In this document: in pieces, positions 149 through 13,643 of the stretch | Layout: every line of letters begins with the position of its first letter | How positions within the stretch are numbered: position 1 is the stretch's first letter | Origin: Blepharisma japonicum | Lineage: Eukaryota > Ciliophora > Heterotrichea > Heterotrichida > Blepharismidae | DNA: 64,000 nucleotides | NCBI GenBank assembly: GCA_949751835.1 | Contig: CATKHK010000029.1 | Location: 399,646 to 463,645, forward strand | Reading direction: 5' to 3' | The notes under the pieces: model-generated | Told to the model about the DNA's origin: nothing | The model's input: only the letters and a program-made list of their open reading frames with translations | Database searches by the model: none | Made by a program: the position numbers and the translations under genes

Positions 149-1456
149 TTACATGAAATCCTCATCCCAATCTTCTTCATCCCCGTTTTCCCCTAGCTGG
201 GCTACGTCCAGTTGATATCTTAAAAACGCTCCAATTCCATTAAATCCTCTAGCAAATTGGCTGCCTTCTTGGCTTTTATCAGTGACTAGTTCAAGTTCAG
301 AACCGAACTTCATATAATTTTCCACAATCCACTCAGCTAATGGTCCTTGCTCTACTATATCAACCTTCTCTCCTTTTTCATTAACTGTACTTATTTCTGC
401 TTCTTTCCCTTGCTCACAATATACAATGTCTTCTCTTCCTGATTCTGGGTGTCTCAGCAAAGTCCTTACAACACTTAAATTTTCATAGAGAATGACTTTT
501 TCGCATGATCCCATCAAAAGTGCCCTCATTGTATCTTCAACTCCATAGCAATACTTCTTAGTATCCTGGGCAATTTCTTCAAAAAATTGGCTGATTATAG
601 CTTTTTCTCTTATAAATTTCACATTATTCAATGTATCTGCTGACAACTCAATTGCCTGCTGGAAGCCATTTTGTCCTCCATATGCGATGTCCACAACTTT
701 TACCACTTTGGATTGAAGTCTTTCGTCAAACATGTCGCTCTGAGCTAACTCCTTTTTAAACTCAGCACTTCCAGCAAGGATTATCCCAACGACATTTATC
801 TTGTCTCCTGTAATAAATTGCACAACTGCCTGCTCTGCAACTTTCCTCAAATAGTTGTGCCTTGATTCCATTCGAAGTCTTGAAAAACGAAGTGCAGACT
901 GACCACCTCTTCTGTGCTTTTTTGGTAAGTCAACCGAAAATTGGTTAAGGATCACTTTGGTGTTTCCTTGTAAGGTGCCAAATAGGGTACCGTTTCCATC
1001 TATAATGATAAATCCATATTTATCTTCCATAACCAAAAGGTCTTTTAGCGGCTGGGTGTGAAACACGTTGTTGCAAATGTAAATTTTCGTATTAATTGGC
1101 CTAAATGGCTCAATATCAATTGTGACTTTTTTCTCGATGACGTCTTTTTCGTTGAGGATTTCTCCACAGTATATCACAAGACCATTTTTAGGCATTCGGT
1201 TATTGTAAAGCTTCAATCTTTCTCGGATTGAAGTTAAAGCACTAAGGATTGCTTGACGGACCACACGGGATTTTATTGAGGTTGCAGAGCCGCACTCCTC
1301 ATTGATCATGCGGCCTGTAAGGGATAATTGTTCGGTAGGTGGAATGATGAGAGAGATAAGGGAAGTTCCATGCCCTCGGCACTTGTCAAGATTTTGAATC
1401 AATCTTTTAATTTTTCACTGCTCGATGTTCTCGGCTACTCCTCGGGAATCATCCAT
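149..1456 (-). CDS. ETF1: Eukaryotic peptide chain release factor 1 (eRF1) with variant TASNIKS motif
   Basis: A 435-residue class-1 release factor that recognises stop codons in the ribosomal A site and triggers peptidyl-tRNA hydrolysis. Length matches the family (about 437). The GTS motif is near residue 32, the GGQ catalytic motif is at 184-186 and the YxCxxxF motif reads YICNNVF at 126-132. The TASNIKS motif is replaced by SATSIKS at 57-63 (positions 1268-1288), so the decoding Asn is Ser; the Glu two residues before the motif Gly is kept. The start at 1456 is chosen because the usual N-terminus (EQWKIKRLI) then appears, with its conserved Trp encoded by UGA at 1415-1417. The C-terminus is acidic, as usual. 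No introns. The factor must spare UGA in this organism, so the motif change is likely functional, though a paralogue with another motif could exist elsewhere. Confidence 0.95.
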
Positions 1457-3130: not shown

Positions 3131-4336
3131 CTACACAAATCCACAACATTTCTTTTTATTTCGTATTTTTATCTTTTCTTCTTTGATTTTTCTATTATTT
3201 TTCTTAGATGGTTTTTTGTTATCGATATCAGTTTTTTTGCCTGTGAAAGTATTTTTACTAGCAGTCACTTCTTGCATTGATATTAGTGACGCTCTATCCA
3301 CAACATCATTTTCTAAATCCACATTTCCTTCATCTTCATCTGTAGGATTTACAATTAGCTTAAGCTCTTCTTTCAAATCAGGACTTAAATTATGAGAAAT
3401 AAACAAGCTTTCCACTAGCAAACTGGGATTTTGGCTATCATCTTCTTCTTGCCAATACGCATTAACTCCATCATTTACTACAATTTTAGTAAGTAATTGA
3501 TCAAGATTAATGCTACTTCTGGCAATAGAATCAATTTTTTTACAGTCAGAACTAGCGTTTTCTATATCCTGAGGAGAGTTCTCATCAACTTCTTTAAGTC
3601 GTGAAATATTTGCCTCAGCTGATTCTATGCAGCTTATTAATCTTGTCAGCCTAGCCTCAGTCTCTCCTATATCCTCTTTAAGTGATTTCATATCCAAATA
3701 CACTTCTGCCTGCTCTTTCACTAAAGTAGGCATTTTTTCACAGATTTCTTGTGCTTCCATATCTTTAACAGTATATGTATAAGCCTTCATAACTCACGTA
3801 GAAAGTGCCACAATCTCATCAGGTATTCTACCATCACGAATCATAAGAGAAAGATTATGTTTTTTCTGAATCTGCAATATAAAATCAAGGCTTTCAGGCT
3901 CAAGGTTTTGAGGATCAAATGACTGCAAAGTTTCTTGGAAAGTCTCACAGTCTTTGATAACTCTCTAATTAGAAAATACTCGAAAAGTCGACCAAGTACC
4001 TGTGGAATAGCCAATCATTAAACAGATCGCAATGCTTAAATCTTGAAGAAGTGGCCATGGGTTTATGATTTCTAGAATTGAGCGAAGCTGAAACTTATTA
4101 AATGATTCTGCTATTAGGCTGGCTTCTTTTGCTGCAGCTCGACTTTCAGAAACAACAGCTGAATAATATTTTTCTTGCTCTTCTAAGATGAGATTGCATC
4201 GTTTGAATTGAGACTCAAGGGAACCTAACTCAGCTTTGTAGCTTCATAAAGAAAGTTTATTGGCTTCTATTCCGCGCTTGCATTCGTTGGTTAGAGACTG
4301 CTGCTCTTTGATCAGTTTTGAAATTAATTCTGACAT
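3131..4336 (-). CDS. Free-standing dynein stalk / microtubule-binding-domain protein
   Basis: 396 residues after removal of one 15-nt intron and reading two UGA as Trp. Residues about 1-100 form a coiled coil, then comes a globular part with dynein heavy-chain stalk-tip features: INPWPLLQDLSIAICLMIG matches the 'NPP..VK...E.IC.LLG' helix, followed by an aligned Trp, FQETLQSFDPQNL matches the 'F...L..FD..NI' helix, and ALSTWVMKAYTYT matches the 'AC..M..W..A...Y' helix that leads into the returning coiled coil (about 230-290). No AAA modules are present; the gene ends with a Lys-rich stretch and CGFV, a possible CaaX prenylation box. A microtubule- or membrane-linked role is inference. Start at 4336 is the first ATG of the open frame. 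Confidence 0.7.
3965..3979 (-). other. 15-nt intron in the dynein-stalk-like gene
   Basis: GTATTTTCTAATTAG on the minus strand. It contains an in-frame TAG; removing it joins STFR to RVIKDCETF inside the conserved stalk-tip region. Confidence 0.9.
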
Positions 4337-4816
4337 TGTATATAAATTTTCAAAAAGGCGGAAGTGAGGGTGCAATTATTAAGAAGTTTTTGAGGGATTT
4401 AATGTCAACACATTTATAGCATCTTTTAATTATTTATGATAATATTTTTCTATCTATGATTTGATTTAAATAAATAAATCCAGTAATAAAAGTGAGCTTA
4501 TGATTAAAGATTCTTATTTCAAAATGAGAAAAATTCTAAGAACTTCAAGCTTTAAATGAGATAAAGATCTTAATTTATACTCATTAAATGAAGTATCTCC
4601 ATAGAGAAGTTCTATTAATAGTTTATTTTAATCTCAAAATCTTTTTAAATTTGGATAAAACTATAAAAGAAGAAAATAGTTAATATGTTGGTAAGATTAT
4701 GATATAATCATAATCAATTTCAAAGCAAAGTATATAAGCTTAATGTTTTTTGATAATCTCGCTTGTGATAATCATAAATAAATTTTATTACTAATTTAAT
4801 AATCGTTTATTAAGCA
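4337..4816. other. Non-coding spacer between divergent genes
   Basis: 480 bases of AT-rich DNA upstream of both neighbouring genes, so it should hold both promoters. No specific motif could be recognised. Confidence 0.4.
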
Positions 4817-5785
4817 ATGTGCAATTGAATTCAGCTTACTATCGTATCAAGCTTATCATTTGCATTGAGTGATGGGATTTATGATTTTGTGGTAGGAAAA
4901 GAAAAGAAGGGAACTCTCAATTATGTACAAAATCTATTTGTTTCGGCATTTATATGTGCAATCACTGGAAATGGGTGTTTGTGATTGATATGAGATGCAG
5001 ATCAGGATGAAATGTCAAAAGCATTAAATATTTCTATTTTGGCAGGAATATTTTACTTTGCATCACATCTATTGCTACTAAAATCATTTGAAAGCACTCC
5101 AAGTACTGTTTTACTACCTTTGCTTCAGGCAGGCACTGTCTTTACATTATTTGGCTCTATAATTAAAAGCTGAATTGTAGGAGAAACTTGGCTTGAAAAT
5201 TATTGGCATCTCTTATCATATGTTTTATTATTAATAGGAGGACTTTTGCCTGCTACACAAGGGAATCTCCTTAGAGCTTTTTCTATAAAATTTTGAAAGC
5301 AGCCAAATGTGATTTACCCTATTTTTGCTGAAATTTTCTACTCATTTTATGATTTAGCTATTTCATCAATTGAAGTAAATAAAGAAAGCTCATTTGATAT
5401 GCAGCTATATATGACAGCGGTCACACGAACTGTTTTTATCATATGCTTTCTTATCTTTTTGCCACTTCGAAAAAAAGAGATGAGCGACGTAGTGAATCTA
5501 GGATATTCAATGGCCTTCTTATTTTCTGCAATTTCTGAAATTCTCACACAGCTTGCATTTTTTGTCTCTGCTGGGGCGTTCATGTGCTATTATCAAGTTA
5601 GCCTTGTTCACGCAGCTGAAGGTTCACTTATACAGTGCTTCAACTTGATTTTTTCTTTTTGCTTGAAATATTATTTTAATCTTGGAAAGTCGAACTCAAT
5701 ACAGGTGATATTTATTTAGAATATGGATATAAAAGCATTTTCATTTTTGCTAATTGTATTAGGTTTATATATCAGCACATTATAA
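4817..5785 (+). CDS. Multispan membrane protein, possibly a drug/metabolite-type transporter
   Basis: 317 residues with one 15-nt intron and five in-frame UGA codons. About eight to ten hydrophobic segments are spread over the whole length, with short polar loops and a C-terminal segment (KAFSFLLIVLGLYIST) that exists only if the intron is removed. The general plan (two similar halves, loops with Gly and Glu, small size) fits DMT/EamA-like carriers, but no family motif is conclusive. The ATG at 4817 follows an in-frame TAA. The gene ends 16 bases from the convergent LRR gene. Confidence 0.7.
5705..5719 (+). other. 15-nt intron
   Basis: GTGATATTTATTTAG, with a GTG rather than GTA start. Its in-frame TAG would truncate the protein before the last membrane segment; splicing joins SIQ to NMDIKAF. 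Confidence 0.85.
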
Positions 5786-11566: not shown

Positions 11567-13480
11567 TTATCCAATTGTATTAAGAAACGAATCTTGGTTC
11601 GAAAATATTGAATGAGACACAAACTTGTTTTTCGGAGATTTCATTGTGTCGATCTGCTTAAAAACTGTTGGTTGAAACGTGCACTCTTTAAGTTCTTCTT
11701 TTTCCTTCTGCATCTTCGCTTCTTGTATTTTCTGGTCCATCTTGCTTTTCTTTTCTGCAGCCAAATCATAAAGATTTCTGTGCATGCTTCCAATTGTTTT
11801 CGACTTCCCATCAATTTTCGGCGCAAACGTGCATTCCTCGTCTACTTCTTCTTTTTTCGGGACAACTATATTTTTCTCTTTTGCATGCACCAAGGGTTTA
11901 GCATAATTCCTATCAAGGAAATCCTTAAGCTTCAATTTCTTTTTTTCTTTGTGCTCTTCTTCAGGCACATATTTATTCCTTTTAATTTTATCACTGTACA
12001 GCTCATTTTTCTCTTTGTGGATCCCTCCGACAAGCTTTTGTGATTTTGAGTTAATTGCAGGCTTAAAAGAATGAGTTTCGTTGAAAATTTTTTCAAGCTT
12101 GGCTTCTCTGTTAGATATAAATTCTTTGCCTTTATTATATAAGGATTGGCCGATTGCTATGGACTCTGCAGCATTTACAGCTTTTTTTTTGGGATGGACA
12201 GTTTCCTCTTCTAGTGAACTTCTGAAACTTTGGTTCATTCTTTTGTTGGAATATCTAGGAGAAATTAGGTTCGTTTTGGCGCGATTTGCTTGTTTGGATG
12301 ATCTATTGGATTGATTCATTGATAAATCAGCTTCATTGCTGTGAATTATCATTGATTGCGAAATGATATCATCAAGGTTGTCATGGCTTATGGAGTTTTC
12401 ATCTCGGACTGACATGTAGCAAAAAGTATTTTCTTTTGAGTCAATAATTTCTTCTGCTTGCTCTGATGCGGGCTCTGGACTGCATTCTTCGTTTCTGACA
12501 GAGATAGAGTAGCTTTCACTTTTTCTTGGAATTTCTAGCATGCTCTCTGATTTTTGGATTCATTCTGCTTGATCTTTATTTAAGAGATTCATTTCTGTTG
12601 GATGATATTCATCTTGTTTTACTTCTGAGATTGAATCTTGCTGATACTCGCTTTTATTCAAATGTAGTTCGGTTGTAGGCATACTTGTTGCAGGATCTGG
12701 CTGGTTTTCTTCTTTGGAATATGCACCTTTAATTGATAATTCCAGTTGATTTTTATTTGTTGAATTTATTTCTGAAAAATCTTCTTGATGCTCGATTTCA
12801 TCTTCCAAAGCAAATTTTTCTTCAGACTGTTTTATGGCTGTATCTGCCTGACTAATTTCTTTTAAATCAATATTTTCTTCAATGGATGGCGTTATTAAAT
12901 CTTTATTCAATGAGCTTAGTTCAGCTCTATCTGTATTGAGAATATTTTTAATAATCGAATACGATGTTTCTTCTGGAGAAGCTGCGCTTATATTTGAATT
13001 AATTTGATTGATGTTTATTTCTGCTCCAGAAGAAGAATTATCATTTTTTTTCTCTTCGATTTCTTTACTTTCTTCACCCAAAACTTCTCTAGTATCTTGA
13101 CTTCTTTCATCTTCTCTCAAATTTCTCAGATCTTGATCTACTTCTTGTTTTGATAGACTACCTAATTTTTCATTTTGATCTTCTAAGCTCTCAATTTCTG
13201 GGTTTAACGGCACAATTTCTTCGATTTTTTTTATATCTTGCACAATCTCATCACTTTTTGATAAATTTCCTTCAATTTCTATTTCATTAGATACTTCGTC
13301 AGTTTTTTCTGGAATATTTGAGCATGTAGCAGGGTGATTAACTTCAGTTTGCAATTCATGGCTTAATTCTTCAGAGGGGCGAATATCGTTTGCAAAATTC
13401 TCACTATTTGCGGTTTCTTTAACTTCTTCATTTAGCAGATTGCCGGCTGAGTTTATTTCTTCAACTTCTGGATTAGACAT
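11567..13480 (-). CDS. Long acidic protein with basic coiled-coil and F-x-P motifs at the C-terminus
   Basis: 637 residues, joined through one UGA (12560-12562, QAEWIQKSE). Residues about 1-310 are a low-complexity Glu/Ser/Asn-rich region. The C-terminal third is Lys-rich and helical and carries three spaced motifs of the form F-x-P: HSFKPAI, CTFAPKI and CTFQPTV. Such motifs recur in ciliate cytoskeletal and ciliary proteins of unknown function, so a structural role is inferred only. No enzyme domain is seen. Confidence 0.7.
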
Positions 13481-13643
13481 ATGTATTTATTATTTTTACC
13501 AATTATAAATTATCAGCGCATAGCTATTGATAAAATCTCTTCATTTTTCTCTAATTGCATTAAGAATCACAAATTTATTTAATTTTTGATGCTTTATAGC
13601 TATTTTATATCTGTTTATACTATTTGAGTAATTTATTAGTATT

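Follow-up and report, generated by a model that had tools for sequence, protein, structure and literature searches.

We suggest, with a probability of about 0.6, that the first gene of the window (the whole stretch of 64,000 nucleotides of Blepharisma japonicum DNA analysed here) encodes a constrained paralogue of eRF1 that likely releases at UAA and UAG and in which the reading of UGA is probably weakened, with the altered decoding motif SATSIKS making up at most one part of this effect. Of interest is an old and constrained second class of eRF1 carrying SATSIKS beside the known KSSNIKS kind in a ciliate that uses UGA for Trp. The eRF1 copies are named after their contigs, C29 (the window), C9 and C121, and likewise C4 for Pelota. 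The features of the window gene are as follows:

149..1456, minus strand: intact coding sequence of the eRF1 paralogue C29, 435 aa, ATG to TAA (translation, Pfam and PDB search)
149-151, minus strand: stop codon TAA of C29 (translation)
899..907, minus strand: GGQ catalytic motif, residues 184-186 (translation)
1061..1081, minus strand: YxCxxxF motif in the form YICNNVF, residues 126-132, with Ile126, Asn128 and Val130 in human numbering (alignment)
1250..1252, minus strand: Ala (codon GCA) where human eRF1 has Ser70; C121 also has Ala and C9 has Ser (alignment)
1268..1288, minus strand: SATSIKS, residues 57-63, against human TASNIKS 58-64 (alignment)
1361..1369, minus strand: GTS loop, residues 30-32, with human Asn30 replaced by His (alignment)
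1415..1417, minus strand: in-frame TGA, Trp14; C121 has TGG at this place and C9 TGA

The gene is one uninterrupted frame, and its product is not an eRF1 by chance, given that human eRF1 is its best solved relative in the PDB search (E 8.9e-169) and that three Pfam domains in the order N, M, C each score above their cut-offs (PF03463 80.5, PF03464 148.4 and PF03465 99.7 bits). Neither is it Pelota/Dom34: it is 24.0% identical to the Pelota of this genome versus 58.8% to human eRF1. Among the eRF1 decoding motifs, GTS and YxCxxxF are present and NIKS is replaced by SIKS. The reverse complement of 1268-1288 reads TCT GCA ACC TCA ATA AAA TCC, which gives SATSIKS and differs from human TASNIKS at three of the seven motif positions (T58S, S60T, N61S); Ser70Ala, Leu126Ile, Asp128Asn, Lys130Val and Asn30His are further differences from the human protein. 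An earlier description made from the letters alone, here called the sequence-only reading, had placed SATSIKS at 1268-1288 in an otherwise orthodox eRF1, with GTS, GGQ and YxCxxxF kept and the decoding motif changed at three of seven places including the Asn, and in all of this it was accurate. An AlphaFold model of the protein from a 3-sequence alignment had a mean pLDDT of 37.8 and was discarded. Long open frames near this gene, at 2210-2980, 3134-3964, 4814-5716 and 11570-13486 of the window, gave no Pfam match at E 0.001.

In the genome (45.2 Mb in 224 contigs) a search with PF03463 returned four matches, three eRF1 genes and a Pelota on C4 that is named by TIGR00111 over its cut-off, and the window protein as a query found three places, all of them eRF1 (C29, C9 and C121). 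SATSIKS is present in C29 and C9 and KSSNIKS in C121, and the proteins are 73.1% (C29-C9), 67.5% (C29-C121) and 61.3% (C9-C121) identical. TGA makes up none of three Trp codons in C121, one of three in C29 and two of three in C9. C121 carries KSSNIKS, YICDNKF and Ala70, exactly the motifs that have been published for three species of Blepharisma. One half of the sequence-only reading holds, in that an eRF1 with SATSIKS is real, and the other, that this protein is the eRF1 of the genome, is unsupported; another eRF1, C121, retains Asn61 within KSSNIKS, matches the published Blepharisma motifs, lacks TGA codons and scores highest of the three in codon usage (a weak index), which counts in part against that reading. 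Given three eRF1 genes of which C29 and C9 form an old clade, SATSIKS is neither the only decoding motif of the genome nor a product of recent decay. The C9 gene (C9:327547-328836; L004:1453-2748) has Ser70, Asn66 and Thr71, altered surroundings of GGQ (YRKGGQSSMRY) and two TGA codons.

Protein scans of viral_contigs and genome_contigs for relatives outside this genome yielded none that was confirmed. A DNA pattern for the GGQ region had one match in viral_contigs, a frame at the contig end (L080:3614-5182, minus strand, IMGVR_UViG_3300033048_000033) that begins with ~95 residues similar to the M domain, GGQ included, of aRF1/eRF1 (best 4af1, E 5e-20) and of which the remainder matches a phage portal protein from residue 337 of the portal on (7qog, E 3e-48). 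This is a fusion or an assembly chimera, the latter being suggested by the absence of the N-terminal half of the portal; having no N domain, the frame says nothing on the decoding motif.

Several lines of evidence show that C29 is old and under purifying selection. In all three eRF1 pairs the whole-gene pS is saturated (0.76-0.84) and pN is far lower (0.14-0.24), and between C29 and C9 dS is high yet finite in two domains (M 2.34, C 1.86), with dN/dS of 0.058 and 0.109, respectively. The motif codons of C29 and C9 are unlike at four of seven places and the peptide is identical. On this basis we rejected the idea that C29 is a recently decayed gene or pseudogene (pN far below pS; different motif codons for the same peptide) and the idea that it is a recent copy or an allele (saturated whole-gene synonymous sites, a shared neighbour gene). 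We also discarded an excess conservation of SATSIKS between the two copies because their N domains are 77.3% identical, which makes seven identical residues unremarkable.

A quartet that included human eRF1 joined C29 to C9 in 100% of 200 bootstraps, and the alignment columns for this grouping and its alternatives stood at 26 to 8 to 4 (three domains summed), which places C29 and C9 in an old clade that split long ago from the KSSNIKS eRF1 (C121). The branches measured 0.074 (C29), 0.297 (C9) and 0.192 (C121), and the stem leading to the SATSIKS pair 0.221; the paths from the node shared with C121 and human were 0.295 (C29), 0.192 (C121) and 0.518 (C9). By these lengths C29 is much slower than C9 within the pair, and C9 is the odd one, with a fast M domain in which it has 21 changes of its own versus 5 in C29 with C121 as outgroup. 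C29 is not, taken as a whole, the best conserved of the three copies, as it is somewhat more changed than C121 when counted from human eRF1 (50 versus 34 unique changes in a Tajima test, chi-square 3.05, not significant). When human eRF1 serves as outgroup, the changes in the N domain are evenly split (C29 12 to C121 11, C9 14 to C121 14, C9 8 to C29 8) and show no faster change of this domain; with C121 as outgroup they are 15 for C9 to 5 for C29. A convergent neighbour gene lies downstream of both SATSIKS genes (C29:396174-397329 and C9:328943-330131, 54% identical) and was not found within the 9 kb examined around C121. Given this common neighbour, the two SATSIKS genes probably go back to the duplication of a segment that held two genes or more.

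For expression, which we infer from codon usage, the score was built on six reference genes and is a weak index (leave-one-out values from -0.115 to 0.229; the expression level of L091, an EF-G, is unsure). Of 29 background genes, C121 outranks all by this score, C29 outranks 28 and C9 outranks 17, and the value for C29 (-0.017) is close to that for the eRF3 gene (-0.014). One eRF3 (C44, L082) and one HBS1 (C8, L081), named by their best solved relatives, were found among the 9 of 77 GTPase matches inspected for this purpose, to which L091 was later added as a tenth, and there may be a further eRF3. Two near-identical and presumably organellar EF-Tu genes (C7:401914, over the NCBIfam cut-off, and C54:183506) have no Trp codon.

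The claim that UGA encodes Trp in this genome is supported. In 42 non-overlapping window frames of more than 150 aa, C29 included, there are 78 TGA versus 102 TGG codons, although the ends of these frames may include some non-coding codons. The 30 window frames longer than 250 aa use TAA as their stop in 22 cases and TAG in 8, the only two codons that can end a frame when TGA is read through. An RF2-like self-regulating stop at the TGA of codon 14 of C29 is disfavoured, TGA being 78 of the 180 Trp codons in the window frames; that C29 and C9 share this TGA is unremarkable because descent predicts it in two sister genes. In the genome, 14 of 33 tubulin-domain matches have no TGA, including the 8 best-scoring ones. 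Of the remaining 25, 19 contain between one and three within the matched stretch. This suggests that strongly expressed genes avoid TGA, an idea that the pattern fits but does not test.

A search with one tRNA-Trp pattern gave 20 matches, 6 of them tRNA-Trp(CCA) genes and 14 in which ARAGORN recognised no tRNA; most of the latter are due to chance because a control pattern gave 19. No tRNA-Trp(UCA) was found with this one pattern, which a different variable-loop length or an intron would escape. The six tRNA-Trp(CCA) genes are identical, and an A27-C43 mismatch leaves them a 4-bp anticodon stem. They are located as follows:

C6:207197, one gene
C14:525827, one gene
C47:94453, 97308 and 98109, three genes
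C49:321360, one gene

In Blastocrithidia and Condylostoma, UGA is reportedly decoded by a tRNA-Trp(CCA) with a 4-bp stem, a form also reported from Blepharisma (PMC13092985). For B. stoltei, too, the use of UGA as a Trp codon has been reported (PMC9942806). The six genes thus also account for UGA as Trp.

E55, GTS, K63, R68, Y125 and C127 are the same in human eRF1 and the three Blepharisma copies. At the following positions (human numbering) the residues are, in the order human, C121, C29, C9:

Position 30: N, N, H, L
Position 58: T, K, S, S
Position 59: A, S, A, A
Position 60: S, S, T, T
Position 61: N, N, S, S
Position 66: V, I, V, N
Position 70: S, A, A, S
Position 71: V, V, I, T
Position 124: L, L, I, I
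Position 126: L, I, I, I
Position 128: D, D, N, D
Position 130: K, K, V, K

Ile126 and Ala70, both stated to raise UGA readthrough (PMC4695839), are present together in C29 and equally in C121; C9 has Ile126 but Ser70. As for Asn61, a simulation describes it as contacting the sugar of nucleotide one and as stabilising the codon but playing no part in discrimination (PMC5681627), changes at the motif Asn are reported to affect UAA and UAG (Frolova 2002, as cited in PMC12005148), and the yeast N58A change at the same position is reported to raise readthrough of TAG reporters (PMC12440015). N61S is no marker of UGA use, since it is shared by Paramecium, in which UGA is reported to be the sole stop. 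SATSIKS alone therefore predicts nothing firm on UGA, and the motif by itself leaves the changed code unexplained. In a full-text search of open-licence papers, the scope of which does not include figures, SATSIKS was absent.

Combining these data, we suggest that C29, one of three eRF1 paralogues and a member of the old SATSIKS clade with C9, is most likely still a GGQ-dependent peptide release factor that reads UAA and UAG. Its reading of UGA would be weakened mainly by Leu126Ile and Ser70Ala, both common to the KSSNIKS copy, and SATSIKS would modify the loop that lies at the first base of the codon. The three genes, their motifs, the constraint on their sequences and the tRNA genes are observed directly, and what we infer is the codon specificity, the expression and the competition. 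Of the sequence-only reading there remain a true eRF1 with a changed motif in a genome with UGA as Trp and two N-domain changes reported to weaken UGA reading; its claim that SATSIKS restricts the factor to UAA and UAG is unsupported, as N61S is found in the UGA-only Paramecium and changes of the Asn are tied to UAA and UAG. Because C29 is one of three eRF1s and its altered motif does not mark UGA use, the functional claim for SATSIKS is weakened; the sequence claim holds.

Other explanations share some of this evidence. That SATSIKS itself limits the factor to UAA and UAG, as a cause or a consequence of the reassignment of UGA to Trp, would be in line with the SIKS motif of Euplotes, in which UGA is also sense (PMC4695839), and with the identity of SATSIKS in C29 and C9 despite saturated whole-gene synonymous sites. 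Nevertheless, we consider it unlikely: Paramecium with N61S is reported to be UGA-only (PMC4695839), the simulation assigns Asn61 no part in discrimination (PMC5681627), RIKS is reported for Amoebophrya including species with the standard code (PMC12005148), and Asn61 is retained in the KSSNIKS copy of this very genome as well as in the printed sequences of three Blepharisma species. Alternatively, all three eRF1s could read UGA and be outcompeted by the 4-bp-stem tRNA-Trp, the N-domain changes being near-neutral for specificity. The six identical tRNA genes, the lack of a tRNA-Trp(UCA) match with the one pattern and a B. japonicum eRF1 reported through citing papers to recognise all three stops speak for such competition, which we nevertheless regard as doubtful given the reported effects of Ile126 and Ala70 in other eRF1s (PMC4695839) and given that TGA, as 78 of 180 window Trp codons, would impose a heavy load if the release factors read UGA well.

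A separate task of the SATSIKS pair, such as stage-specific termination, regulation of termination or readthrough, or surveillance, instead of codon choice would suit C9, with its fast evolution that is strongest in the M domain, its Ser70, Asn66 and Thr71, and its average codon usage. It suits C29 less well, with its short tip branch (0.074 vs 0.297 in C9), its codon-usage score near that of eRF3 and its intact GTS, YxCxxxF and GGQ, and we hold this idea only tentatively. The preferred reading is that C29 is probably a constrained UAA/UAG release factor with weakened UGA reading. A division of labour with a UAA/UAG-only factor, resembling the Euplotes pair, is possible. A speculative proposal is that two ancient Blepharisma classes share termination, one a KSSNIKS factor of broad specificity and the other a SATSIKS factor for UAA and UAG only, the latter arrived at independently of the Euplotes TAESIKS/TAVNIKS pair. 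If true, eRF1 duplication followed by N61S in one copy would be a repeated route in ciliates with UGA as sense, and C9, with Ser70 kept or regained, would represent a third specificity. It is disputed for Blepharisma how UGA is sense despite a reportedly three-stop eRF1. Because a constrained eRF1 class that differs in its decoding residues exists beside the first in this genome, testing a single protein may have captured only part of the release activity. Three natural proteins in one genome with one tRNA allow the effects of positions 58-61, 70 and 126 to be separated.

The eRF1 sequences printed for B. americanum, B. japonica and B. musculus have KSSNIKS, YICDNKF, Ala70 and Ile126 (PMC4695839 Table 2). 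C29 has Ile126 and Ala70 in common with them, in a genus that reads UGA as Trp, and differs from them in SATSIKS and YICNNVF, whereas C121 agrees in KSSNIKS, YICDNKF and Ala70. The sources on specificity conflict: the B. japonicum eRF1 reportedly recognises each of the three stops, UGA somewhat more weakly (Eliseev 2011, via citing papers), and Blepharisma is elsewhere stated to recognise only UAR (PMC4695839). The sequence printed for B. japonica nevertheless has Ile126 and Ala70, so the two residues do not necessarily do away with the reading of UGA.

Several ciliates, Euplotes, Paramecium and Tetrahymena among them, reportedly carry two eRF1 genes (PMC2613156, PMC3359775). Like Blepharisma, Euplotes has a SIKS and a NIKS kind in a ciliate with UGA as sense (eRF1a TAESIKS with N61S, eRF1b TAVNIKS; PMC4695839), and its Ile126 and Ala70 are both found in C29, with C9 having Ile126 but Ser70; the likeness is one of printed motifs only, residues 58 and 60 differ from those of C29, and UGA encodes Cys in Euplotes. 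Paramecium (EAASIKD) resembles C29 in N61S but is reported to be UGA-only, with Ser70, Phe126 and Asp64 and with its altered TASNIKS as part of the restriction (PMC4695839). Blastocrithidia resembles the genome of C29 in a change at position 70, a 4-bp-stem tRNA-Trp(CCA) and UGA as Trp, and differs in that the residue at 70 is Gly, UAA and UAG are reassigned as well, and the functional motifs are described as conserved (PMC12153298, PMC13092985).
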